A DNA stretch of 64,000 nt, taken from contig CANMJR010000001.1 in the NCBI GenBank assembly GCA_947498025.1, positions 1 through 64,000 of the forward strand. Direction: 5' to 3'. The translations under genes were made by a program, and so were the position numbers. This DNA comes from Helicobacteraceae bacterium. Lineage in GTDB: Bacteria > Campylobacterota > Campylobacteria > Campylobacterales > Sulfurimonadaceae. Positions 763 through 61,789 of the stretch are shown one piece after another. A model generated the notes under the pieces. The model was not told the origin of the DNA, searched no databases, and was given only the letters and a program-made list of their open reading frames with translations. Positions within the stretch are counted from its first letter, which is position 1, and each line of letters opens with the position of its first letter.

Positions 763-1056
763 AAAATTTATATCGGAAAAAATTTAATTATATTTAATTT
801 AAGAAGGAAAAAAGTGTCGCACATATTTTCATGTATAAAGAGATAAAATCGAGTGACAAAAATCAAGTTTCGATTCAATTCTGATGTCCTTACAACTCCA
901 TAAAGCTGCAAAAACAAGTGAAGCGTCTTTCGCAAAGCAAAAATGTTTCTTTAGTCAAAATTTGTTTTTAGAGAATTACATAGCATAGTGCAATATTTTT
1001 GCATCCACTCCATTTCTTCTGATATATTTCTTTCTAATTTAAATTAAAGAGTTCCA
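763..1056. other. Divergent intergenic region with degenerate R-element
   Basis: This 294-base stretch lies between the divergent EF-hand gene and the HTH gene. The part next to 762 is AT-rich and presumably carries the promoter of the minus-strand gene. The middle (881-976) is a degenerate copy of the dispersed R-element. The last 80 bases are AT-rich, with an AAAGAG ribosome binding site just before 1057. No further gene was found. Confidence 0.6.
881..976 (-). repeat. R-element copy R1 (degenerate, long-arm type)
   Basis: Read on the minus strand, it matches R7 closely: a TCTAAAAACA block, ACTAAAGAAA, a TTTGCTTTGCGAAA hairpin, a GCTTCACTTG block, GCAGCTTTA, then a decayed core (ATGGAGTTGTAAGGAC in place of AGGGGGTTGTAGGGAC). 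The second hairpin has decayed, and no third hairpin or terminal inverted repeat can be recognised. It is probably an old copy. Confidence 0.7.
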
Positions 1057-7072: not shown

Positions 7073-8704
7073 ATGGAGTTAGTTTATTTGTGGGTTGAGG
7101 ATTACAAAAATATACATTATCAAGGGTTTAATTTCAATCCGAGATTTGAATTTGAATATATTCAAGATAAAAAGGAATTGGTACTTAACAAAGAAAATAA
7201 AGATTATGTAAGTATTTTTCCTCTAAACATTAATGTTACTGCTATTGTTGGGGAGAATGGGAGTGGGAAAAGTAGTGTTTTTGAAGTGTTATCAAAAATA
7301 CTAACACTTAATAGCGGTTTAGAAGAATTTAACTATTTTTATGTTTTAAATAATGGTTCGGACAATATCTGTTATTCAAATAATATAAATATAGAAAAAA
7401 ACATTTCAATGCAAATAGTAGATGGGAGTTTAAGTCATGGAACGGCTAGTTATAATATAGCTTTAAATAAACATTTTGATGTAAACTATCTTAATATATC
7501 TCATTTAGAAAAAGATGGCATTATTAAAAATGATTCACCAAGTCCAGAAGACCCTATAAAATATTATGGTATTTATAGAAAAAATGATTTTGATTTATAT
7601 AAAGAAAATAGTTTGTATCCAACTTTTTCAGGATTCAAACTTTCACAATTTAACTTTTTTCAAACTTATGCAATAGGTAATTTATTGGTTGATGATAAGT
7701 ACAAAAAGCTATTTTTTGAAGTTTTTAAAATCAAACAACCTTATAGTATTAAAATTGACTATAAAAAAGAAGACCTTGAAAAAATAAAATTTTCTAATAC
7801 ACCCAATGGTGACCCATCAAGACTAGTGGATGCAAGTGTCCCTGAGAAGATTGATAAAATACTCGAATTTTTAATAAAAATAGATAATAACTTGATTATT
7901 GAAAGTGATGATTATAAAACATTTTTTACATTAGTTTCATCTGTAAATTTAGAAGAAGAGTTTCAATTGACTTTTCAAACAGAAGAGAATAAAACTATCA
8001 AATTAAGTGCAGGTGAAAAAACAATTTTATTTTATTTGGAAAGAATAGATTTTATGTTGTCACAATTTAAAAGCAAAAGCAATATATTACTTTTTGACGA
8101 AATAGAATTATATCTTCATCCAAATTGGCAAAAACGAATTTTAAAAATAATACTTGATTTTATTCAAGAAAATAAATTAGTAAAAAATCTACATATTATA
8201 ATAGCCTCTCACTCTCCATTCATTCTCTCAGACCTACCAAAAAAAAATGTGATATTTTTAGATAAGTTTGATGATGAAACAAAGAAAAAATATCCAAAAT
8301 TAAAGATAAATGGATTAGAAAATGGAAATTGTATAAATGTAAGTAAGTATATTGAACTTAATCCTTTTGGAGCAAATATCCACACTTTACTTTCTCACGG
8401 TTTTTTTATGAAAGATGGGCTTATGGGTGAGTTTGCGAAAGGGAAAATTGAAGAGATTAAAAAATTTTATGATGAAAACAAAAATCTTCAAAAAGAAGAT
8501 GCAAATTTTCAAACACAGAAAGATGATTATGAAGCAAAAGAATATAATTTTAGATATATCCAATCAATCATCGGTGAGCCATTTTTAAAAACTATTATTG
8601 GTAATTATTTGGATGAGTTGGAAATTTTATTTTATGGGAAAAAAGAGTTTTTAAAAAAAGAAATAGAGAGGTTACAAGAATTAGAAAAGAGTTTAAATGA
8701 TTAA
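7073..8704 (+). CDS. ptuA: Septu-like defence ATPase PtuA
   Basis: A 543-residue ABC/SMC-type ATPase. Walker A is GENGSGKS (60-67), the signature-like LSAGEK is near 311-316, Walker B LLFDEIELYLHP is near 340-351 and the switch SHSPF near 378-382. A long insertion (about 85-300) separates the P-loop from the signature, as in anti-phage RecF/OLD-like ATPases. Together with the overlapping HNH gene this is the architecture of type I Septu: PtuA with the PtuB nuclease, which degrades DNA after phage infection. The gene is very AT-rich and uses mostly A/T-ending codons compared with nearby housekeeping genes, consistent with transfer. No reverse transcriptase is nearby, so it is not a retron-borne copy. 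Confidence 0.8.
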   Translation: MELVYLWVEDYKNIHYQGFNFNPRFEFEYIQDKKELVLNKENKDYVSIFPLNINVTAIVGENGSGKSSVFEVLSKILTLNSGLEEFNYFYVLNNGSDNICYSNNINIEKNISMQIVDGSLSHGTASYNIALNKHFDVNYLNISHLEKDGIIKNDSPSPEDPIKYYGIYRKNDFDLYKENSLYPTFSGFKLSQFNFFQTYAIGNLLVDDKYKKLFFEVFKIKQPYSIKIDYKKEDLEKIKFSNTPNGDPSRLVDASVPEKIDKILEFLIKIDNNLIIESDDYKTFFTLVSSVNLEEEFQLTFQTEENKTIKLSAGEKTILFYLERIDFMLSQFKSKSNILLFDEIELYLHPNWQKRILKIILDFIQENKLVKNLHIIIASHSPFILSDLPKKNVIFLDKFDDETKKKYPKLKINGLENGNCINVSKYIELNPFGANIHTLLSHGFFMKDGLMGEFAKGKIEEIKKFYDENKNLQKEDANFQTQKDDYEAKEYNFRYIQSIIGEPFLKTIIGNYLDELEILFYGKKEFLKKEIERLQELEKSLND

Positions 8705-13905: not shown

Positions 13906-14922
13906 ATGAAAGTTATTTTTACAGCAGTGATGACTATACTGATAAGCAGTTCCTTAGGAGCCTATACAAAACAGATTGTTTTTGATAGTTTTAAAGACAA
14001 AGAGAGCGCGCATGCTGCATTTGAAAAACTAAAGAGTGATGAAATCTACAGTAAACTTGAACTTATTTCAAAAGAGAATGATTTTACTATTCATGTTATC
14101 GGCTCTTCCGGACAAAATCTTTTGGTTGCAGAACCTATAAAAAATCAGTTTATACTCGAAGAGACACTGAAATTGGTTGTACAGAAGTTTAACAATGCCA
14201 GTATAAAAGATATTGAAAAAGCATCGCAAAAAGCAGTGCAAATATTATCTACCGATAGTGCATCCACCTCGGAATATCCAAAAAAAATCATGTTGGGATC
14301 ATATTCTCTAAAAGAGGGTGCCTATGAGGAGCTAAAAAGGTTTCAAGAGGATGAGGTATATGAAAAGCTTAACTCATTGGCCGGAAAAAATGATTTTGTA
14401 ATTCATGTCCGACCTCTTGACAACTATACTGTTTTGGTTGTAGAACCTATAAAAAATAAAGAGATGCATGAAGAGGTTATGCGTCTTGTTACTTCTAAGT
14501 TTGAGGGTGTATATAGTCTAGAATATAGCGGAGCAACCCAAACCAAAGAAGAAGAGCAAAGCCTTGAAGTATCGGTAGCAGCAGTGCCGGCAGTCATTCC
14601 TGCAAAAACAAAAGTTGCAGATAAAAATATTTCGGCAACAAAAACAGATGCTAATATCACTCAACCTTTAGTGCATGCGACTCAAAAAGATACGAATGTT
14701 TCAGTAGTAGCACAACTCGATAGTGACAAAAGCAAAGCAGAGACAAAAGTTGTAACAAAAAGTGCAAAAAAAGAAGAGACAATAGTTGTTAAAAGGGTAA
14801 AAGAAGAGGCAGAAGGGGAGAGTTCATTTGCCATGTTTGTTTGGCTATTTATATTGGGCGTAGCAGCCGGAGCGATAATATATGTATATCCAAAAGCAAA
14901 ACGAGTGTATAACCAGTATTAA
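13906..14922 (+). CDS. Exported protein with two tandem SPOR-like repeats and C-terminal membrane anchor
   Basis: 338 residues from the ATG at 13906, chosen for the strong GGGGGAAG ribosome binding site and a following signal peptide (MKVIFTAVMTILISSSLGA). Two homologous blocks of about 75 residues follow: KQIVFDSFKDKESAHAAFEK..VAEPIKNQF..LKLVVQKF and KKIMLGSYSLKEGAYEELKR..VVEPIKNKE..MRLVTSKF. Their size and pattern are like SPOR-type peptidoglycan-binding repeats, but the match is weak. A Lys/Thr/Val-rich linker (about 220-305) leads to a transmembrane helix (about 310-330) with a short basic tail. Likely periplasmic with an inner-membrane anchor; the function is inferred only from layout. 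Confidence 0.65.
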   Translation: MKVIFTAVMTILISSSLGAYTKQIVFDSFKDKESAHAAFEKLKSDEIYSKLELISKENDFTIHVIGSSGQNLLVAEPIKNQFILEETLKLVVQKFNNASIKDIEKASQKAVQILSTDSASTSEYPKKIMLGSYSLKEGAYEELKRFQEDEVYEKLNSLAGKNDFVIHVRPLDNYTVLVVEPIKNKEMHEEVMRLVTSKFEGVYSLEYSGATQTKEEEQSLEVSVAAVPAVIPAKTKVADKNISATKTDANITQPLVHATQKDTNVSVVAQLDSDKSKAETKVVTKSAKKEETIVVKRVKEEAEGESSFAMFVWLFILGVAAGAIIYVYPKAKRVYNQY

Positions 14923-15015
14923 AAGTGTTTTTAAAAAGAGGGACATGAAAGAAGTTTATTGACAAAATATAAAATTGGATTGGCATGTTGGATTACAAGC
15001 AAAAGTTATCAAAGA
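14923..15015. other. Decayed sequence before the AAA/DUF4276 cassette
   Basis: AT-rich bases after the previous stop that carry fragments of former coding sequence but no intact gene. They lead into the methyltransferase-tail remnant at 15016-15075 in the same reading frame (LACWITSKSYQRQYKL). Confidence 0.4.
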
Positions 15016-15075
15016 CAGTATAAATTGTATTATTTAACTGATGAAGAAATAAAAATTATTGAAGGTAATAGATGA
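15016..15075 (+). pseudogene. Remnant of a DNA methyltransferase/type IIG C-terminus (left copy)
   Basis: The frame ending at the TGA 15073-15075 reads QYKLYYLTDEEIKIIEGNR. This matches the extreme C-terminal pattern of Eco57I/type IIG-like methyltransferases (LVYxLYGLTxEEIxIVE), from memory of that family. Nothing upstream is intact. Its TGA overlaps the ATG of the AAA gene, as if that gene had followed the intact methyltransferase. A similar tail occurs at 16931-16997. Confidence 0.5.
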
Positions 15076-16154
15076 AAATAGATGCTATAAGTATAAAAAA
15101 TTATAAATCTATTAAAGATATAGATGATTTAAAACTTACAAATCTAAATATTTTGATTGGTGCCAATGGTGCAGGAAAATCAAACTTCATCTCTTTTTTT
15201 AAAATGCTTAACATGATGATAGAAAAAAAGTTTCAAGAGTATGTAAAAGTGCAGGGTGGAGCAGATAATATTTTGTATTTTGGTTCAAAAATTTCATCGG
15301 AAATTTGTGCAACAATTGATTTTAAGAATAATATATATAGATTTATACTAAAACCAAATGAAGATGATACACTATTTTTTGCTGAAGAAGCAACGCCTTA
15401 CGTAGGAGAAAATATTATAGGTAAGGCTACCTTTGAAACTCAGCTTTTTAATGCAAAAGGTTCGAAAATATATGGAAAATATCATAAAGGAGTTGCTGAT
15501 TACGTAATTGATGCTTTACAGTCATGGAAAGTTTACCATTTTCACGATACAAGTTCAACGGCAGGTGTAAAAAAATATTGTGATATATCAAATAACAGAA
15601 AATTAGCTCCAGATGCCTCAAATTTGGCGGCTTTTTTATATCTGCTTAAAATAAAATTTCCTGATAGTTTCTTTATGATAGAAGAAAGCATCAAACTTAT
15701 AGCACCCTATTTTGATAGATTTATTTTAGAACCCGATGCATTGAACGAGGAACGAATTAGATTAGAGTGGTTAGAAATAGGAAGTGATAAAATTTTTAAT
15801 GCAAATCATCTCTCAGATGGAACTCTGCGAATGATATGTTTAACTACACTTTTGCTTCAACCAAATGCAGCAGACACAATCATAATAGATGAACCTGAAC
15901 TTGGGCTTCATCCTTATGCCATAACTGTTCTGGCAGCACTTATGAAAAGTTTTGCGATTGATAAGCAACTAATAGTTTCTACTCAATCAGTGTCTTTGAT
16001 AAATCAATTTGAGCCTAAAGACATTGTCGTAACGGATAAAATTGACGGAACATCAGTTTTTAGAAGATTGGAAGAAAATGAGCTGGCTGACTGGGTAGGC
16101 GAATACTCTTTGGGTGAGATATGGGAAAAAAATATTATCGGTGGTCGCCCATGA
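15072..16154 (+). CDS. AAA_21/OLD-like ATPase of a two-gene defence-type cassette
   Basis: A 360-residue ABC/RecF-type ATPase. Walker A is IGANGAGKSN (29-38), LSDGTLRM near 247 is the signature-like element, Walker B TIIIDEPELGLHP lies near 269-281, and STQSVSL near 302 replaces the usual SHS switch. Family AAA_21 (PF13304). The next gene, a DUF4276 protein, starts on an ATGA overlap, so the two are translationally coupled. ATPase plus TOPRIM-like partner is the layout of anti-phage systems such as PARIS (AriA/AriB) and AbiL; a matching role here is inferred. AT-rich, and sits between decayed mobile gene fragments. Confidence 0.75.
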   Translation: MKIDAISIKNYKSIKDIDDLKLTNLNILIGANGAGKSNFISFFKMLNMMIEKKFQEYVKVQGGADNILYFGSKISSEICATIDFKNNIYRFILKPNEDDTLFFAEEATPYVGENIIGKATFETQLFNAKGSKIYGKYHKGVADYVIDALQSWKVYHFHDTSSTAGVKKYCDISNNRKLAPDASNLAAFLYLLKIKFPDSFFMIEESIKLIAPYFDRFILEPDALNEERIRLEWLEIGSDKIFNANHLSDGTLRMICLTTLLLQPNAADTIIIDEPELGLHPYAITVLAALMKSFAIDKQLIVSTQSVSLINQFEPKDIVVTDKIDGTSVFRRLEENELADWVGEYSLGEIWEKNIIGGRP

Positions 16155-16786
16155 GCAAAGTTCTTATGTTGGTTGAGGGAGACACCGAAGAAAGATTTGC
16201 CAAAGAGTTGTTAAAACCTCATTTTGAGCAAAAAGGAATTTTTATTATTCCGAGAAATTTAAAAGGTGTAGGGAATTATAAAGCAATTCATCATGAAATA
16301 AAAATACTTTTAAAAGATAGTAATGCTATATCTGTTACTACAATGCTTGATCTTTATAGAATACCATCCGATTTTCCAGGTTTTAAAGATTTGCAAAAAG
16401 ATTTACATTTTAGAAAAAAAGTTGAAAAGTTAGAGATTTTATTTGCTGAAGATATTGATAATAGTAAGTTTTTACCTTATTTGCAGTTACATGAATTTGA
16501 AGCACTTCTTTTTAGTGATGTGTCGCACTTTAAAAAAATTCCAAATATAGGAAATAAAATCTCTGAATTTGAAAAAATCATCTCTTCAAAAGAACCGGAA
16601 GAAATAAATGACTTGCCAAATACTTCACCTGCAAATAGAATAAAAAAAATATTTAGCTTTTATGATAAAAAGCTTCATGGGATAATAATAGCAAAATCAA
16701 TAGGATTAGATAAGATGAGAGAAAAGTGTCCTCATTTTCATAGCTGGATAGAGTCAATTGAAAGTCTGACATCTCAAAAACTTTAA
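16151..16786 (+). CDS. DUF4276 (TOPRIM-like) partner protein
   Basis: 211 residues from the ATG at 16151, preferred over an in-frame ATG at 16121 because it forms the usual ATGA overlap and puts VEGDTEE at residues 8-14. DUF4276 (PF14103) hallmarks are all present: VEGDTEE, TTMLDLYRIPSDFPGF (63-78) and LQLHEFEALLFSD (111-123). The acidic residues Glu9 and Asp67 are placed like TOPRIM catalytic positions. The likely role is the effector (nuclease) half of the cassette with the upstream ATPase, by analogy with AriB/AbiLii; the activity has not been shown for this family to my knowledge. Confidence 0.75.
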   Translation: MSKVLMLVEGDTEERFAKELLKPHFEQKGIFIIPRNLKGVGNYKAIHHEIKILLKDSNAISVTTMLDLYRIPSDFPGFKDLQKDLHFRKKVEKLEILFAEDIDNSKFLPYLQLHEFEALLFSDVSHFKKIPNIGNKISEFEKIISSKEPEEINDLPNTSPANRIKKIFSFYDKKLHGIIIAKSIGLDKMREKCPHFHSWIESIESLTSQKL

Positions 16787-16862
16787 ACTCAATGCAAACA
16801 CGATAGAATGGGCAAACGGTGCAGATATAGCACCTGAGAGAATTTATGAGATAGCACAGTAA
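16782..16862 (+). pseudogene. DUF2442 C-terminal remnant
   Basis: The frame 16782-16862 reads FKLNANTIEWANGADIAPE followed by RIYEIAQ and stop. The NTIxWxNGADIAPExLYE motif is the typical end of DUF2442 proteins, often found beside DUF4160 in toxin-antitoxin-like pairs. The N-terminal half is absent: the frame starts inside the DUF4276 tail. Confidence 0.6.
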
Positions 16863-16903
16863 AAAAATTAAGTTGACATGTGGAAGTTTAAAATTATCCA
16901 CTT

Positions 16904-16997
16904 GCCGACGCAAGAGAACAGGATACAAAAACGGACGAGTTGGTCTATAAGTTGTATAATCTAAGCGATAAAGAGATAAAAATTATAAGAGGAACGC
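16904..16997 (+). pseudogene. Remnant of a DNA methyltransferase/type IIG C-terminus (right copy)
   Basis: The frame reads ADAREQDTKTDELVYKLYNL then SDKEIKIIRG. It fits the same type IIG/methyltransferase tail pattern as 15016-15075 (YKLYNLSDKEIKIIRG against YKLYYLTDEEIKIIEG). The body of the gene is missing: a stop at 16889-16891 precedes it. Confidence 0.5.
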
Positions 16998-17203
16998 ATG
17001 AATGTAACGATACATTTAGAAATACAAAATGATTTAAAAGATGCTTTACTTGCTTTTTTGAAGTTGTTGCCATCCACTGCTGTTAGAATATATGAGGAAG
17101 ATGACACGACATTTACGGAAGAAGATTAGGCGGCATTTGCAAAAGTGATGGACGAAAAGAGCAGAGTGTTAGTTTAGATGAATTAAAACAGAAGTATCTC
17201 TAA
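16998..17203 (+). pseudogene. Broken antitoxin gene
   Basis: The ATG at 16998 opens MNVTIHLEIQNDLKDALLAF..., continuing to a TAG at 17127-17129. Directly beyond, in the same frame, comes AAFAKVMDEKSR, and after one frame change QSVSLDELKQKYL with a stop at 17201-17203. Together this reads as a small ribbon/RelB-like antitoxin with FTEED-Y-AAFAKVMDE, where the tyrosine codon has become TAG and a frameshift follows. Two lesions make it non-functional. Confidence 0.6.
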
Positions 17204-17290
17204 ATGTATCGTCTTGAAATTTCCAAAGACGTTGATGAAATTTTGATATATGTTTATAAGGCTGATAGCAGGGGCGATATTTATAAGTGA
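17204..17290 (+). pseudogene. RelE/ParE-type toxin with internal deletion
   Basis: Starts one base after the antitoxin stop: MYRLEISKDVDEILIYVYKA then DSRGDIYK and stop, 28 codons. The beginning matches the N-terminus of RelE/ParE toxins, and the end resembles their usual C-terminus (HRxDIYK); about 50 central codons are missing. An intact frame through a deletion suggests loss of the toxin after the antitoxin broke. Confidence 0.55.
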
Positions 17291-17317
17291 TGAATAAAAT
17301 AAAATGAGGAAACAGGA

Positions 17318-27360: not shown

Positions 27361-27382
27361 TATATGTGTTGCTTTTTAACTG

Positions 27383-27480
27383 ATGTTACGCACCTAAACG
27401 AACGCGTCCGTTTAGATGGCAGAGGTATATGTCTCTACAACCCCCTAAAGCTACAAGAAACGCTGTTTTTTGAGAATAAT
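27383..27480 (-). repeat. R-element copy R2, inside the mla operon
   Basis: ATGTTACGCAC terminal repeat at 27383-27393, third hairpin CTAAACG/CGTTTAG with its G-T wobble (27394-27415), second hairpin (AGAG/CTCT type), the core (read as TACAACCCCCTAAAGCT on the plus strand) and a first hairpin with one mismatch. The other terminal repeat is lost at the mlaD side. A 46-codon open frame (27364-27504) crosses it. Confidence 0.85.
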
Positions 27481-27496
27481 ATGGAGATAAAATTAT

Positions 27497-30978: not shown

Positions 30979-30981
30979 CTA

Positions 30982-31074
30982 ATGTTACACACTCAAATGA
31001 GCGAAGCCCATTTGAGTGGCAGGGACAAACTTGTCCCTACAACCCCCTAAAGCTACACAAAGTAAGCTTTGTGA
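30982..31074 (-). repeat. R-element copy R3, convergent, pairs with R4
   Basis: Begins ATGTTACACAC (30982-30992), third hairpin CTCAAATGAGC/GCCCATTTGAG, second hairpin GGGACAA/TTGTCCC, core as CAACCCCCTAAAGCTA, first hairpin CACAAAG/CTTTGTG. All three hairpins are intact but with arms different from R4 and R6. Sits between the transglycosylase and the 142-residue gene. Confidence 0.85.
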
Positions 31075-31092
31075 GATTTGTTTGCGGAAATA

Positions 31093-31521: not shown

Positions 31522-31551
31522 CTTTTTTCCTTTATAATTTTTAGATAGCTG

Positions 31552-31688
31552 ATATTACGCACCTTTATGAAAAAATATGTAAAATACTATGTAAATCTCG
31601 AAAAATTTATTTTTCGTAGCTTTAGGGGGTTGTAGGGACAATTTGTCCCTGCCACTAAAACGGACGAGTTCGTTTTAGTGTGTAACAT
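31552..31688 (+). repeat. R-element copy R4, full length (137 bp)
   Basis: ATATTACGCAC (31552-31562) to GTGTGTAACAT (31678-31688): near-perfect terminal inverted repeats (two mismatches). First hairpin CGAAAAAT/ATTTTTCG, core AGCTTTAGGGGGTTGTA, second hairpin GGGACAA/TTGTCCC, third hairpin CTAAAACG/CGTTTTAG with a G-T wobble. Exactly as long as R6. Its last base is the end of the holA stop codon. Confidence 0.9.
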
Positions 31689-32650
31689 CAAATGAGTTTC
31701 TGAACCCTGATAAGCGTTGAGAGCAAAATTGCACCTTTATCCACATTGGAGCTTTTCATTTTTAGTTCACTGCCGAGCAGAAGCGCATGCAGTTTATAGT
31801 AGATGTTCGGTTTAAATTTTAGTGAGAGCGCGGCTTTTTCGTCTATTACCGGTTTTGGAGGAGAGTAGCCTATTATCTCCTGAGCATTCGGAGCGCCGTT
31901 GACCCTTATGTAAATGTTAAACATGTAGAGCTGTGTTATGTAGCTTGTAATAGAGGTTATCACTCTTATCTCATCTTCTCCATGTTCGAGTATGCTGTTT
32001 AAATCCTCTATAAAATCTTTTTTGTTGAGCAATTTTTTTATAAAATCGTCCAGATTTACTTCGGCCAATCCAAAAACTAAGCTATCTATATCTTTTGTAG
32101 TCACTGCTCTGTCGTAAACTCTGAATTTCTCTATCTCGTTGCATGCAAGAGCAACATCGCCGTTATGAATTTGAAGGAGGTGAATAATTGAGTAGTTGTC
32201 TATATTTACCCCTTTCTCTTTTGCAATTTGAGATACTATGCTTTGCGCCTCATACTCTTTTGGATGAAAAAATCTGACACTCATAGTTCTTTTTTTGTCA
32301 AATGCTTTTGCATAAACCTTATGATCACTTCCATAGTAGGCATATACAAAAACATTGTCGGGATTTTTTTCGCAAAGCTCTATATAGATATCTATCTCTT
32401 TTTTGTCTATTTTTTTTTCGCTCTTTAGAACTAAAACATTTCTATCTCCAAAGAGAGAGCCTTGCGATAGATGGGCTTTAGCAGAGCCAAAGTCATATTC
32501 GTCGTGGTAGAATGAGAGTATGGAGCCATCTTCTACATCAGAGACTTTTTTTGTGTAGATATCTATAAAAAAAGTGCTTTCTCCAAAGAGTACAAAACTG
32601 TTGGAAGTAGATCTGTTTTGTATATGCTTATCTAACTCGCTTTTGTACAT
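31688..32650 (-). CDS. holA: DNA polymerase III delta subunit
   Basis: 320 residues. Typical HolA layout: weakly conserved N-terminal ATPase-like domain without a functional P-loop (FVLFGESTFFIDIY, SLFGDRNVLVLKS), central helical region (FRVYDRAVTTKDIDSLVFG) and C-terminal collar (YKLHALLLGSELKMKS). Wrench that opens the sliding clamp during loading. Cytoplasmic, with DnaX elsewhere in the window. Its ATG overlaps the rnr stop by one base, so it is coupled to rnr. Confidence 0.85.
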   Translation of the reverse strand: MYKSELDKHIQNRSTSNSFVLFGESTFFIDIYTKKVSDVEDGSILSFYHDEYDFGSAKAHLSQGSLFGDRNVLVLKSEKKIDKKEIDIYIELCEKNPDNVFVYAYYGSDHKVYAKAFDKKRTMSVRFFHPKEYEAQSIVSQIAKEKGVNIDNYSIIHLLQIHNGDVALACNEIEKFRVYDRAVTTKDIDSLVFGLAEVNLDDFIKKLLNKKDFIEDLNSILEHGEDEIRVITSITSYITQLYMFNIYIRVNGAPNAQEIIGYSPPKPVIDEKAALSLKFKPNIYYKLHALLLGSELKMKSSNVDKGAILLSTLIRVQKLI

Positions 32651-38150: not shown

Positions 38151-40364
38151 GTGAGTCAACCATTAGAAAACATTGAAAAAGTTCTTGTATCCCACAAACT
38201 TTCAAGCGAAGATTACGCACATATCAAAAAGATTTTAGGGCGAGAGCCAAATCTTGTCGAGATTGGTATTTTTTCTGCCATGTGGAGTGAACACTGCTCT
38301 TACAAATCTTCAAAAGTGCATCTGAACGGTTTTCCGACAAAAGCTCCGTGGGTTATTCAAGGTCCGGGGGAAAATGCCGGAGTAATCGATATTGGCGACG
38401 GATATGCGGCTGTATTCAAGATGGAATCTCACAACCACCCAAGTTTTATAGAACCGTACCAAGGGGCTGCAACGGGTGTCGGCGGAATCATGCGTGATGT
38501 TTTTACGATGGGCGCGCGACCTATTGCAAACCTCAATGCTTTAAGATTTGGCAATGTTCTTAATGATGATAAAACCTCTGCACATCAGCGCTATTTGGTT
38601 CGCGGTGTAGTCTCTGGAATCGGCGGTTACGGTAACTGCATGGGCGTTCCGACTATCGGCGGAGAGACAAGCTTTGATGAGTGCTACAATGGAAATATTT
38701 TAGTCAATGCCTTTACTTTAGGGCTTGCAAAGTCGGATGAGATTTTTTATGGTCGTGCGGATGGTATCGGCAATCCCGTCATTTATGTGGGTGCAAAAAC
38801 CGGTCGTGACGGACTCGGCGGTGCGGTCATGAGTAGTGACAGTTTTACAGAGGAGTCAAAATCTCTTCGCCCGACTGTTCAGGTTGGAGACCCATTTACA
38901 GAGAAGCTTCTTCTTGAGGCATGTTTAGAACTCTTCAAAACTGACCATGTTGTCGGCATTCAAGATATGGGTGCAGCAGGGCTAACTTCTAGTGCATTTG
39001 AAATGGCTGGCCGTTCAGGTTCTGGGATGATTATGCACCTTGATAGAGTTCCGGCGCGTGAAGAGAATATGACTCCGTATGACTTTATGCTCAGTGAATC
39101 TCAAGAGAGAATGCTTCTTTGTGCAAAAAAAGGTTCTGAAGCGGAAATTATCAAAATTTTTGAAAAGTGGGATTTGGATGCTGCAGTAATCGGTGAAGTT
39201 ACGGCAACCGGAAATATGGAACTTTTCTGGCACGGTGAAAAGTGTGCTGAGGTTCCTGTAAATCCTGTGAGTGAAGAGGCTCCGGTGCTCAACCGTCCAA
39301 TGGTGCGCCCAGCGTATTTGGACACAATCGCGGATGTTACAATTAACGACTTTGCAAAGGTATCGAATCAAGAAGCGTTTGTAAAACTAACTAAATCAAT
39401 GGAAGTTGTTGATAAGTCTTGGATTTATACGCAGTATGACTCAATGGTTCAAACAAACACAATCAAAAAAGGGGGCATGTTAGACGCTTCTGTTGTTCGT
39501 GTCAAAGAGAACAAAAAAGCACTTGCAATGAGTGCTGACTGTAATGTTCGTTACTGCTACATCGACCCAAAAGGCGGAGCTGCCGCGGCAGTTATCGAGA
39601 GTGGGCGAAATGTTGCCATGAGTGGTGCGAGACCTCTTGCAATAACGGATTGTTTAAACTACGGAAACCCTGAAAATCCAGAGGTTATGTGGCAGTTTGG
39701 ACAAGGGTGTTTAGGTATTAAAGAGGCTTGTTCTGCACTTACTACGCCTGTAATCGGCGGAAATGTTTCACTCTACAATGAGACAAACGGTATTTCTGTT
39801 TTTCCAACTCCTTCTATCGCAACTGTGGGTGTAAATGATGATGAGAACAGAGTTCTTATGTCAAGCTTTCAAGGTGAGGGAAACACTCTTTATCTAGTGG
39901 GAGAGAGTAAAAGTGAGTTTGGTGGTTCACTCTACATGAAAGAGATTTGTGGCACTGTTGCAGGAAAACTTCCTGAGATAAACTATGCTAACGAGCTTGC
40001 TCTTTGGGAGCTTGTTATTGAAGCGAATAAGAAAGATTTACTAGAGTGCGCAAAAGATGCAAGCAGCGGCGGAGTAGCTATCGCATTGGCAAAAATGTCG
40101 GCTGTAAGCGGGCTCGGATGTGAAGTAAACATGGGTGTGCAAGACGAGAGAGATATTTTTGCAGAGAGCATAAGCCGTGCTATTATTGAAGTAAAGCCAG
40201 AAAATTGTGCAGCATTTGAAGCCATGTTAAACGGTTTGGCATGTGCAAAAATAGGAACAATCGGCGGAGAGATTATCAGAGTAAATGATGTATTTATGAG
40301 CATGAATGAACTTCAGGATAACTATTTTAATACATTTAAGAGAGTTATTGAGAGAGATTTATAG
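38151..40364 (+). CDS. purL: Phosphoribosylformylglycinamidine synthase subunit PurL
   Basis: Fourth step of purine synthesis: ATP-dependent amination of FGAR. 737 residues is the short, Bacillus-type PurL that works with separate PurQ and PurS. Motifs: [64 protein letters not shown] and [19 protein letters not shown] start at 38151 behind AGGAATCC. No purS or purQ is next to it in the window. R5 follows the stop. Confidence 0.96.
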
Positions 40365-40368
40365 TTTA

Positions 40369-40515
40369 ATATTACACACCAAAATGAGCACGTGTGTTCT
40401 GTGTCATAAAAAAGCACAGAATAAAGCCCATTTTGGCGGCAAGGACAACTTTGTCCTTTGCAATCCCCTAAAGCTTCCAGCATAAATGCTGAAGATTTTT
40501 ACGAACTTTTTGCAC
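40369..40515 (-). repeat. R-element copy R5, with enlarged third hairpin, pairs with R6
   Basis: ATATTACACAC at 40369-40379. Third hairpin CCAAAATGAGC/GCCCATTTTGG carries an extra inner hairpin (TTCTGTG/CACAGAA) in its loop. Second hairpin AGGACAA/TTGTCCT, core as CAATCCCCTAAAGCT, first hairpin CAGCAT/ATGCTG. It lies between purL and motB. The far terminal repeat is degraded before the motB stop codon. Confidence 0.85.
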
Positions 40516-40516
40516 C

Positions 40517-41362
40517 CTACTTCTGAAGTTTACTCAGAGCATCAAGTATATTATTCTGTTTCTCTTGAGTGAGAGGCATGTCTTTGTTTATAAATATATA
40601 AAGTTCTACCCTTCTGTTCTTAGCACGGTTTTCTTCGGTATTATTATCTGCAATCGGTTTCGCAGAACCAAATCCTGCCATTGAGAGACGCTCCGCACTT
40701 ACACCGTTGCTTATGAGTTCGCGCATTACTGCATCTGCTCTTTTACTAGATAGCGCAATATTGTCCATGTATTGAGAGCCTTTTGAGAGAGGCTGACTAT
40801 CTGTATATCCACGCACAGAAATATCAACATTAGCCGGAAGGGCATTAATAATGTATGAGATACGACTGATAAATAGGTGCAAATCTTCATCATCGATAGT
40901 TGCAGTTGCGCCCTTGAATGGAATGGAAACAGGAAGTTTTAGCAACACTCCATCCATAGATTGGTCTAGCGGTCCCTCCCCACCCATTGTAGAATTAAGC
41001 AGCTCTTTTTGAATTTTACTGATAGCGTCTTTAACTTCTAGGGTTTTTTGTTCTCCGGAGACGAGTGAACCACCATTCTTCGACACTATATTGCCGTTTG
41101 GTTTTCCTTCCGTATCTGGATCAGGTTTTGTGCTGTCAGGTTCGAGTCGTTGTACCGGATTCATTTGATCAGGAGGAGGAGTGAAATCGTAAATTTTTAT
41201 AAATTCCTGTTTAACGGCCTTTAATTTTTCGGTATTAACAGATGCTATCGCAAAAAGAGCAATAAAGAGTGCAAGAAGAAGACTGAAAAAGTCGGCGGTA
41301 GGAACTGCCCATTTTTCTCCTGCCGGACACACAACCTTTTTACACTTCTTAGGTCTGCCCAT
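40517..41362 (-). CDS. motB: Flagellar motor stator protein MotB
   Basis: 281 residues. One N-terminal transmembrane helix with the critical proton-binding Asp (WAVPTADFFSLLLALFIALF), a plug/linker region, and a C-terminal OmpA-like peptidoglycan-binding domain (VDISVRGYTDSQPLSKGS, NIALSSKRADAVMREL, RVELYIF). Anchors the stator to the cell wall. It lies 11 bases after motA. R5 directly follows its stop. Confidence 0.95.
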   Translation of the reverse strand: MGRPKKCKKVVCPAGEKWAVPTADFFSLLLALFIALFAIASVNTEKLKAVKQEFIKIYDFTPPPDQMNPVQRLEPDSTKPDPDTEGKPNGNIVSKNGGSLVSGEQKTLEVKDAISKIQKELLNSTMGGEGPLDQSMDGVLLKLPVSIPFKGATATIDDEDLHLFISRISYIINALPANVDISVRGYTDSQPLSKGSQYMDNIALSSKRADAVMRELISNGVSAERLSMAGFGSAKPIADNNTEENRAKNRRVELYIFINKDMPLTQEKQNNILDALSKLQK

Positions 41363-41373
41363 TTAAATACCCA

Positions 41374-42144
41374 TTACTTAAATTGACTGTGTTTCTCTTC
41401 CCCGTAAGGAAGGAAGTTGAGTAGTTTTGCTTCAAGTGTACGAGGATTGTCACCGTTTACTATGCCGATAATCCCTTCCAGCATTAATTTTTGTTCTTTG
41501 ACAATATGGTGTGATTTAGCCATCATTTTATTTCCAAACGGTCCAAGAACAACATACGCAGAAAAAATTCCTGTTACGGTAGCAGTAAAAGCTCCCGCAA
41601 TACCCTTTGCCATCTCCGGAGGATTGTCTAGTTTTTGAAGCGCTAGAATAAGACCCAAAACGGCTCCGATTAGCCCCATAACGGGTGAAGTTTCTCCTGC
41701 AAGAATCCAGTAGTGGGCGCATCCATGCCAATACTCTTCCGTCTCTTCAATGACTAAATCAAGTGTTTCAATGATAGTGTCAATCTCATTCCCGTCCACT
41801 GCCATGCTAAGACCCTGTTTTAGAAATTCGTTGTCTAGCATGGAAACTTTTTTTTCTAGTGATAACAGACCGTCATGGCGTGCCATGGTTGATAACTCAA
41901 TAATTTCTTTGATTCTTTCGTGCAAATGTACCGGATTTTTTTTGAATACAAAGCCAAGATTTTTATAAGCACCTCTGACAAACTCGCCGTCTGTACTTAC
42001 CATAGCTGCGAGCATAGAAGTAGGAAAAATAATAATAATAGAAGTTATATGGACGACATGCACAGGGTTTCCACCCTCCATCAAGTCCCCTATAGAAATA
42101 CTCGCCATTGCTCCCAATATTCCTAAAATGACCGTTAAATCCAT
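41374..42144 (-). CDS. motA: Flagellar motor stator protein MotA
   Basis: 256 residues with the MotA/ExbB-type four-helix membrane pattern: DLTVILGILGAMASISIGDL, a cytoplasmic loop with charged residues (about 70-150), GETSPVMGLIGAVLGLILAL and GIAGAFTATVTGIFSAYVV. Conducts protons with MotB to drive the flagellum. Precedes motB on the minus strand with an 11-base gap, which contains the motB ribosome binding site. The upstream gap to 42491 is 346 bases and holds R6. Confidence 0.95.
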   Translation of the reverse strand: MDLTVILGILGAMASISIGDLMEGGNPVHVVHITSIIIIFPTSMLAAMVSTDGEFVRGAYKNLGFVFKKNPVHLHERIKEIIELSTMARHDGLLSLEKKVSMLDNEFLKQGLSMAVDGNEIDTIIETLDLVIEETEEYWHGCAHYWILAGETSPVMGLIGAVLGLILALQKLDNPPEMAKGIAGAFTATVTGIFSAYVVLGPFGNKMMAKSHHIVKEQKLMLEGIIGIVNGDNPRTLEAKLLNFLPYGEEKHSQFK

Positions 42145-42490
42145 ATGACTCCTTCTTGTTTATGGCACATACTGATGTTACGCACTCTTTATGAAAAAGC
42201 ACATAAAAACCTTTTTATTCTCGAAAAACAGAGTTTTTCGTAGCTTTAGGGGGTTGTAGGGACATCCGTCCCTGCCACCAAAACGGACTTGTTCGTTTTG
42301 GTGCGTAACATATATTAATTTAAATTTGGAAAACTAAAATCGGCGGATTATACAATACTTTTAATAAAGAGTTAGACAAAGAAAAATAGAGCTTTTTCAT
42401 GGCTGGTTTTTTGAAGAAAGTTATCCTATAAATCGTTCAACAAAAATTAAGTTTTATGTATTTATACTTGTGCTAGATAAGAGGATTTGT
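42145..42490. other. Divergent gap between motA and the HD-GYP gene
   Basis: 346 bases. The first 30 hold the motA ribosome binding site (AGGAGTC on the minus strand). Then comes R6 (42175-42311), a 150-base AT-rich stretch, and TATACT at 42463-42468, a probable -10 box for the plus-strand gene at 42491. Any motA promoter must lie inside or beyond R6. No other gene seen. Confidence 0.55.
42175..42311 (+). repeat. R-element copy R6, full length (137 bp), perfect terminal repeats
   Basis: ATGTTACGCAC (42175-42185) and GTGCGTAACAT (42301-42311) are exact inverted repeats. First hairpin CGAAAAAC/GTTTTTCG, core AGCTTTAGGGGGTTGTA, second hairpin GGGAC/GTCCC, third hairpin CCAAAACG/CGTTTTGG with the G-T wobble. 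Best reference copy. No target-site duplication is evident (flanks ..TACTG and ATATT..). A common CTG precedes the left end in several copies. Confidence 0.92.
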
Positions 42491-43525
42491 ATGAATAATT
42501 TAAAAGTAATTTCTGTTGATGATGCTCTTATGAATTTAATGCTCATAGAAGAGATAGCAAAAGAGATGGGTGTCCTTGTTCAAAGTTTTCAAGACCCATT
42601 GGAGGCTTTAGCATTTATTCAACAAAATAGAGTTGATTTGATGTTTGTTGATTATATGATGCCGCAGATGAATGGAGTTGAACTTATAGTTGAGGCGCTG
42701 GCTCTTCAAGATGAGCTAATCCCTATTATGGTTACAGCAGTGGATGATGATCAAAATTTGAAACTTGAAGCACTTAAAGTCGGAGCGGCGGATTTTTTAA
42801 CAAAACCTGTGGATGTAGCACAGCTAGAGGCAAAGATTAAAAATTTCACAAAAATAATCCAGCTAAAACTTCAGTTAAAAGATTTTAATGCAAAGCTCCA
42901 AGAAGAGGTACAAAAGGCTACTACAGATCTTATTGAGAGAGAGCATGAAGCACTTCAAATTATTTCAAGGCTTTCAGAGTATAGAGACCCTGAAACAGGA
43001 AGGCATATCTCCAGAGTAGCACACTACTCAAGACTTTTGGCTAGAGAGTACGGATTAAGTGAGAAAGAACAAGATATACTTTTCTTCGCCTCTCCTCTGC
43101 ATGACATAGGAAAAGTCGGAATAAGGGATAATATTCTGTTGAAACCTGCGAAGCTAGAGTATGATGAGTATGAAATCATGAAAACACACTCCGACATAGG
43201 GTATGACATGTTAAAAGACAGCAAAAACCCTTATCTTCAGGCGGGTGCAATAATCGCAAAAAATCATCATGAAAAATATGACGGAAGCGGTTATTTTTCT
43301 TCTCTTAAAGGGGATGAGATACATATTTATGGGCGCATAACAGCGATTGCAGATGTTTTTGATGCACTTACATCGGAGAGACCATACAAAAAGCCGTGGA
43401 GTTTTGAAGATACGGTGGAGTTTTTAAAAAATGAGTCCGGAAAACATTTTGACCCAAGATTGGTTGAACTCTTTATAGAAAATATAGAGAAGATTAGAGA
43501 AATTTATTTAAAATTTGAGTATTAA
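42491..43525 (+). CDS. Response regulator with HD-GYP-like output domain
   Basis: 344 residues from the ATG at 42491, preceded by AAGAGGA. Receiver domain (about 1-120) with DDALMN, acceptor Asp in FVDYMMPQMNG and LTKPVD. A coiled linker (about 125-165) leads to an HD-GYP phosphodiesterase domain: RHISRVAHYS, SPLHDIGKVGI, THSDIGYDML, HHEKYDGSGYFSS and DVFDALTSERPYKKPW. The metal-binding His and Asp are present. The GYP itself reads GYF, an altered third residue. First of a likely three-gene unit with the FIST protein and hybrid kinase. It degrades c-di-GMP if active. Confidence 0.88.
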   Translation: MNNLKVISVDDALMNLMLIEEIAKEMGVLVQSFQDPLEALAFIQQNRVDLMFVDYMMPQMNGVELIVEALALQDELIPIMVTAVDDDQNLKLEALKVGAADFLTKPVDVAQLEAKIKNFTKIIQLKLQLKDFNAKLQEEVQKATTDLIEREHEALQIISRLSEYRDPETGRHISRVAHYSRLLAREYGLSEKEQDILFFASPLHDIGKVGIRDNILLKPAKLEYDEYEIMKTHSDIGYDMLKDSKNPYLQAGAIIAKNHHEKYDGSGYFSSLKGDEIHIYGRITAIADVFDALTSERPYKKPWSFEDTVEFLKNESGKHFDPRLVELFIENIEKIREIYLKFEY

Positions 43526-48039: not shown

Positions 48040-48157
48040 TATTGTTCTCGAAAAACAGGTTTTACTAAAGAAATATTTTCGCTTTGCGAAAAGCGCTTCG
48101 CTTGTTTTCGCAGCTTTAGGGGGTTGTAGGGATGTTTGTCCTTGCCATCTAACATCA
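48040..48157 (+). repeat. R-element copy R7, long-arm type, third hairpin lost
   Basis: TTCTCGAAAAACAGG then ACTAAAGAAAT, TTTCGCTTTGCGAAA hairpin, GCGCTTCGCTTGTTTTCGC, core AGCTTTAGGGGGTTGTA, then a shortened second hairpin and TAACATCAG at the end. The third hairpin is deleted cleanly, so the right terminus joins the second hairpin. It lies between the hemerythrin gene and the next gene. Confidence 0.85.
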
Positions 48158-48183
48158 GTGAATAATGAATAAAAGGATTACAA

Positions 48184-61626: not shown

Positions 61627-61784
61627 CTGTTATTTCGCACTTTTATTCTCAAAAAATAAGGTTTTTTCTAAAGAAACATTTTCGCTATGCGAAAAACGAT
61701 TCTCTTGTTTTGTAGCTTTAGGGGGATGCAAGGGACAATTTGTCCCTGCCATCTAAACGGACGCGTTCGTTTAGATGTATAATA
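61627..61784 (+). repeat. R-element copy R8, long-arm type with both ends
   Basis: Left terminus CTGTTATTTCGCAC (61627-61640), a long first arm with CTAAAGAAAC and TTTTCGCTATGCGAAAA, core AGCTTTAGGGGG (then ATGCA), second hairpin GGGACAA/TTGTCCC, third hairpin ATCTAAACG/CGTTTAGAT around ACGCGT with the G-T wobble, right end ATGTATAATAT (decayed). Lies between the convergent molybdoenzyme gene and the TlpA-like gene. Confidence 0.87.
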
Positions 61785-61789
61785 TTGGT

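Follow-up and report, generated by a model that had tools for sequence, protein, structure and literature searches.

Oppositely oriented repeats around a motB-motA stator operon are probably separate copies of a MITE-like element family of Campylobacterales

In the window analyzed here, the 64,000-nucleotide start of a contig from a Helicobacteraceae bacterium, two copies of a short repeat, R5 and R6, lie in opposite orientation on either side of the stator genes motB and motA. A first-pass annotation had suggested that this inverted pair might enclose the operon like the ends of a composite mobile unit, or else that it reflects a preference of the elements for gene borders. The repeat and its coordinates hold up (Table 1). 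R5 fills the gap between the convergent purL and motB genes: its fixed end begins 1-2 bp past the purL stop codon (40362-40364), and about 2 bp separate its variable end from the motB stop codon (40517-40519). R6 is located in the divergent gap between motA and a response regulator gene and starts 27 bp ahead of the motA start codon (ATG, complement of 42142-42144), a distance first given as 30. The repeat is far beyond chance, as a covariance model built from 34 copies recovered at least 117 copies at E <= 1e-5 in the same genome (2.93 Mb draft, 102 contigs; a lower bound, with 150 candidates scored), and R6 matches other copies in the genome at 81-96%.

Table 1. Features of the stator locus and further family copies in the window
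Feature	Position	Strand	Remarks
purL	38151..40364	+	convergent with motB; Pfam AIRS domains
R5	40366..40514	-	divergent, 5′-truncated copy; absent in G095 and G069
motB	40517..41362	-	Pfam MotB_plug and OmpA
motA	41374..42144	-	Pfam MotA_ExbB
R6	42172..42314	+	full-length near-consensus copy; ends near 42314
Sigma-28-like motA promoter	42337..42363	-	TAAA-N15-GCCGATTT; putative class
Response regulator-HD gene	42491..43525	+	divergent from motA; Pfam response regulator and HD; motA-linked in relatives
Family copy, fragment	881..954	-	
Family copy, 5′-truncated	27380..27486	-	site without element in G069
Family copy	30979..31090	-	orthologous copy in G069
Family copy, full length	31545..31690	+	site without element in G069
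Family copy, degenerate, nested repeat	48065..48160	+	site without element in G069
Family copy, nested repeat in hairpin A	61631..61787	+	

We compared the two elements with each other. R6 retains both ends, reading from a terminal inverted repeat (TIR; CTGATGTTACGCAC) at 42172 through hairpins D, A, B and C to a fixed end, GTGCGTAACAT, with altered last bases. R5 keeps its fixed end only, and a palindromic insert of about 34 nt sits in the loop of its terminal hairpin. R5 and R6 agree at 82% of the 104 positions that align and differ by large indels, so R5 is a divergent member; the pair is unmatched and represents different subtypes of one family. No target duplication is recognizable at either element (the R6 flanks agree at 2 of 7 positions), and no common outer duplication surrounds the two. 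The list of open reading frames holds none of 80 aa or more inside R5 or R6, and neither encodes a transposase, whereas a composite transposon is flanked by functional insertion sequences.

The locus in relatives bears directly on whether R5 and R6 bound a transposable segment that carries motBA. The best named motB records come from Sulfurimonas MAGs (97% and 75% amino acid identity) and a Campylobacterales MAG (96%). In the two closest relatives, G095 (93% over motBA) and G069 (92%), purL, motB, motA and the regulator follow in identical order and orientation, and neither element is present in its R5 or R6 form; the purL/motB junction is a 6-nt gap in G095 and holds an unrelated terminator-like hairpin in G069. 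In G106, a 77% relative, motBA adjoins the same regulator, purL lies elsewhere, and no element is near. The purL junction is therefore the only variable one, and G095 and G069 share it without R5. Because motA is joined to the regulator even in the 77% relative, motBA has not traveled as a 1.6-kb unit. The first-pass annotation had named motAB in an unchanged place without either element in most relatives as what would refute its reading, and this is what the two relatives with this arrangement show. The segments inside two other close pairs of elements are likewise in place in G069. The opposite orientation of R5 and R6 with outward fixed ends, repeated in the five closest pairs of the genome, is what such a unit would display, but with motBA in place without either element in both relatives that have the arrangement, a truncated R5 and no shared duplication, we regard the composite unit put forward in the first-pass annotation as extremely improbable. 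Inversion of motBA through recombination between R5 and R6 was also considered and rejected, as the operon has the same orientation in the relatives that lack them.

The same comparison raises the alternative that both elements are old and vertically inherited, and that G095 and G069 have lost them. At the R6 site, both have a palindrome of 34 nt (ATATAACTAAAAATTTGTACATTTTAGAAATCAG in G095) that is similar to the element's terminal hairpin and possibly left over from the element. In G095 the global score of this spacer against a minimal element was reached by 0 of 2000 shuffles, for a stretch that was chosen after inspection. The palindrome is absent from the R6 site of the outgroup G119, so R6 may descend from an ancestral copy that has since decayed in G095 and G069; elements found at the 3′ end of purL in several further species fit with inheritance as well. 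Against this, the likeness to a minimal element is weak in G069, the R5 site shows just the short gap or the unrelated hairpin, and the purL copies elsewhere adjoin a different gene. We consider vertical inheritance possible but doubtful. The composite-unit reading fails whether R6 is a new insertion or an ancestral element.

Having set the locus in context, we took a closer look at the family. A full copy measures about 142 bp (about 116-143 bp without nested repeats), is non-coding, and is bounded in the 69 two-ended copies by 14-bp TIRs, CTGAYSTTACGCAC. The 5′ TIR with hairpin D (TTACGCACTTTTATGAAAAAGTGCGTAA) is followed by hairpin A, a linker, hairpins B and C, and the 3′ TIR GTGCGTAACATCAG; the linker that joins the hairpins, GTAGCTTTAGGGGGTTGTAGGGAC, is nearly invariant, and hairpin B is GGGAC..GTCCC. 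The two-ended copies share three covarying hairpins. In an alignment of 28 copies from several families, the bases of hairpins A and C vary while pairing is kept: 94.6% of cells are paired (36-47% in slid controls), and double changes number 90, compared with 28 in shuffles. No Rfam 15 model matched the window at the gathering threshold.

Several lines of evidence indicate that the family is mobile. Of the 69 two-ended copies across all genomes, 32 have 7-bp flanks that agree at 6 or all 7 positions (16 agree exactly), compared with 0 of 69 in an offset control, and the duplicated target has the consensus TTAWTAA. The part of the window that aligns with G069, a genome of about 90% nucleotide identity, holds six elements, of which G069 lacks five and shares one; further sites are polymorphic as well. 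A clean insertion is found at the purL 3′ end of G098, where TAATCAA-element-TAATCCA corresponds to an unfilled TAATCTA in G093 and G061. The family thus has several of the features of a MITE: short non-coding copies in large number, TIRs, a target duplication and empty sites in relatives. In over half of the copies, the 3′ end is kept but the 5′ TIR is missing. This fixed 3′ end led us to consider 5′ truncation of a retrotransposition-like kind, which we rejected, as the exact 7-bp duplications on two-ended copies favor a transposase of the DDE kind and later erosion; we read the missing 5′ TIRs as probably due to such erosion. Separately, a block of about 2.4 kb at 14922-17317 of the window is missing in G069, which has a 35-bp spacer there.

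We then asked where the elements lie relative to genes, using simple ORF calls and the 45 elements with two neighboring genes. Eighteen of the 45 fall between convergent genes, compared with 68 of 424 gaps (16%; p = 1e-4), and in 31 of the 45 the fixed end points towards a stop codon (47% expected; p = 0.004). As the target TTAWTAA contains TAA/TTA, it can explain both the excess at gene ends and that between convergent pairs. The element preference for gene borders, which the first-pass annotation had offered as its other reading, is therefore borne out by placement and target alike. An inverted pair as close as R5 and R6 is not unusual in this genome, where five adjacent pairs lie within 2 kb and copy density alone predicts about 3.6. 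In all five (main contigs C1, C3, C5 and C8 of G000) the fixed ends point outward, minus then plus, as in R5 and R6, a curiosity that chance does not obviously give. The few close pairs listed in other genomes break this rule (G131 C31, minus/minus; G081 C40, plus/plus; G109 C185, plus/minus). In G098, G065, G067, G039 and G081, too, an element follows purL, in the orientation that R5 has relative to purL but with other neighboring genes. Such purL 3′-end elements occur in at least five other species (L263, L264, L280, L267, L265).

Taken together, these data suggest, with a probability that we put at roughly 0.82, that R5 and R6 represent separate, independently placed copies of a single non-autonomous MITE-like element. 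A transposase acting in trans would move the element; a target with TAA on either strand would direct insertions onto or beside stop codons; and the 7-bp duplication would restore the stop codon after insertion, so that insertions would do no harm and would build up, chiefly between convergent genes. R5 would be one such insertion, in the convergent purL/motB gap, and R6 another, in the divergent motA/regulator gap, and their independent placement would produce both the opposite orientation and the bracketing of motBA. Several observations sit uneasily with separate insertion of a MITE: loss of the 5′ TIR in more than half of the copies is unexplained by a plain MITE, the palindrome in the relatives means that their R6 site is not clean, the searches described below gave no transposase-bearing element with these ends, and R5 and R6 lack duplications of their own, so that we infer their insertion from the behavior of the family.

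The conserved pairing leaves room for a reading in which the hairpins serve first of all as an RNA module, either regulatory or forming mRNA 3′ ends, and mobility is secondary. Covariation and the invariant linker across families, the excess at gene 3′ ends (convergent pairs above all) and the other hairpins found at the equivalent place in relatives would all suit such a module. The elements occur, however, in both orientations relative to genes, differ in presence between species and match no Rfam model, and palindromes may also be maintained at the DNA level; we therefore think a primarily RNA-level role unlikely. Less likely still is that the family consists of REP/REPIN-type elements with a RAYT (Y1) transposase as their mover. 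The element is palindromic and intergenic, has GTAG beside hairpin B, and shares its genome with nine Y1 domain matches. Yet the two short RAYT-like genes that we examined are flanked by other palindromes, G005, G021, G071 and G070 carry 15-22 scored copies and no Y1 match, and TIRs with a 7-bp duplication are not a Y1 signature. We rejected RAYT mobilization because the Y1 genes carry other palindromes and Y1 matches do not track the element-rich genomes. The two RAYT-like genes (L087:2351-2884 and 7873-8397) have their own flanking palindromes (TTCCCAAGCTGGAGCTTGGGAACGAG; GGCTCTGCCTTCGGTAG). A 470-aa Y1-domain protein is encoded at L086:7579-8991, with proteins of similar length in other genomes of the genus, and a truncated element copy (L086:9000-9055) lies directly downstream of its gene.

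We also looked for an autonomous partner. Non-exhaustive searches, by paired ends across about 1.8 Mb of two genomes, by PF01609, and by end patterns in six genomes, found no autonomous element with the same ends and a transposase. They returned only more MITEs and a second MITE type of about 258-265 bp with the same ends.

IS630-type MITEs duplicate TA. The bacterial MITEs Correia/NEMIS and RUP are short, non-coding, multi-copy elements with TIRs and a target duplication, mostly intergenic (PMC2229807, PMC10969869), and the present family resembles them in each of these respects. It differs in its 7-bp TTAWTAA duplication, covarying internal hairpins and invariant linker, and in having many 5′-truncated copies and no parent insertion sequence that we could find. 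BOX and SPRITE of Streptococcus pneumoniae are small intergenic repeats that insert into one another (PMC10969869); our family likewise has repeats inside its hairpin loops, but is of other sequence and lineage and has a target duplication. ERIC/IRU of enterobacteria, an intergenic imperfect palindrome of about 127 bp thought to affect mRNA (PMC2229807), differs in sequence, whereas our family has a 7-bp duplication and separate hairpins. REP/REPIN elements with RAYT are similarly palindromic and extragenic; the element described here is longer, is bounded by TIRs with a duplication, and does not lie beside the RAYT genes examined. The open literature that we searched, also by sequence strings, held no description of the element, and for an order-wide family with conserved hairpins we found none in Rfam either.

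At the stator locus, R6 lies between the sigma-28-like promoter and the motA start and so should be transcribed within the motA leader, which should be about 110 nt longer as a result. The promoter sequence, which also contains TATAAT, is common to G095 and G069 and less exact in G119. From the sequence we predict that R6 likely makes the motA 5′ leader longer and more structured and that R5 likely provides a 3′-end hairpin between purL and motB. With one element altering the motA leader and one the purL/motB junction, the locus is a natural test case for the rewiring of transcript ends by small mobile elements. More tentatively, the family could be an undescribed, Campylobacterales-wide three-hairpin element with a TTAWTAA target that acts as a traveling gene-end module, adding structured 3′ ends to genes and sometimes, as at motA, 5′ leaders; if so, the many 5′-truncated, 3′-anchored copies would point to an unusual route of insertion or erosion.

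The bracketing of motBA is ordinary, and the element family is the interesting part: it is abundant across an ecologically important order, its target rule can explain insertion at gene ends, and its hairpins are kept by compensatory change across families. With the covariance model, 96 of the 135 genomes searched within the genus gave matches, as did 59 of a sample of 299 from the order, belonging to 18 of 81 genera; the phage, plasmid and viral collections that we searched gave no match to the element.

Palindromic repeats are nested in the hairpin loops of several copies (L092:2262-2416, L024:13076-13229, and 61631-61787 and 48065-48152 of the window). One, TTCTAAAGAAACAT..CGCTTCGCG..ATTCTCTTGTTTTG, occurs in hairpin A or C, and another, CTGTGCTTTTATATGGCACAGAACACACG, in hairpin C, R5 included. 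The second MITE type measures about 258-266 bp and has identical terminal repeats and another interior (L210:126-383; L221-L225, from other Campylobacterales), and many genomes in the order contain sequences that match this interior.
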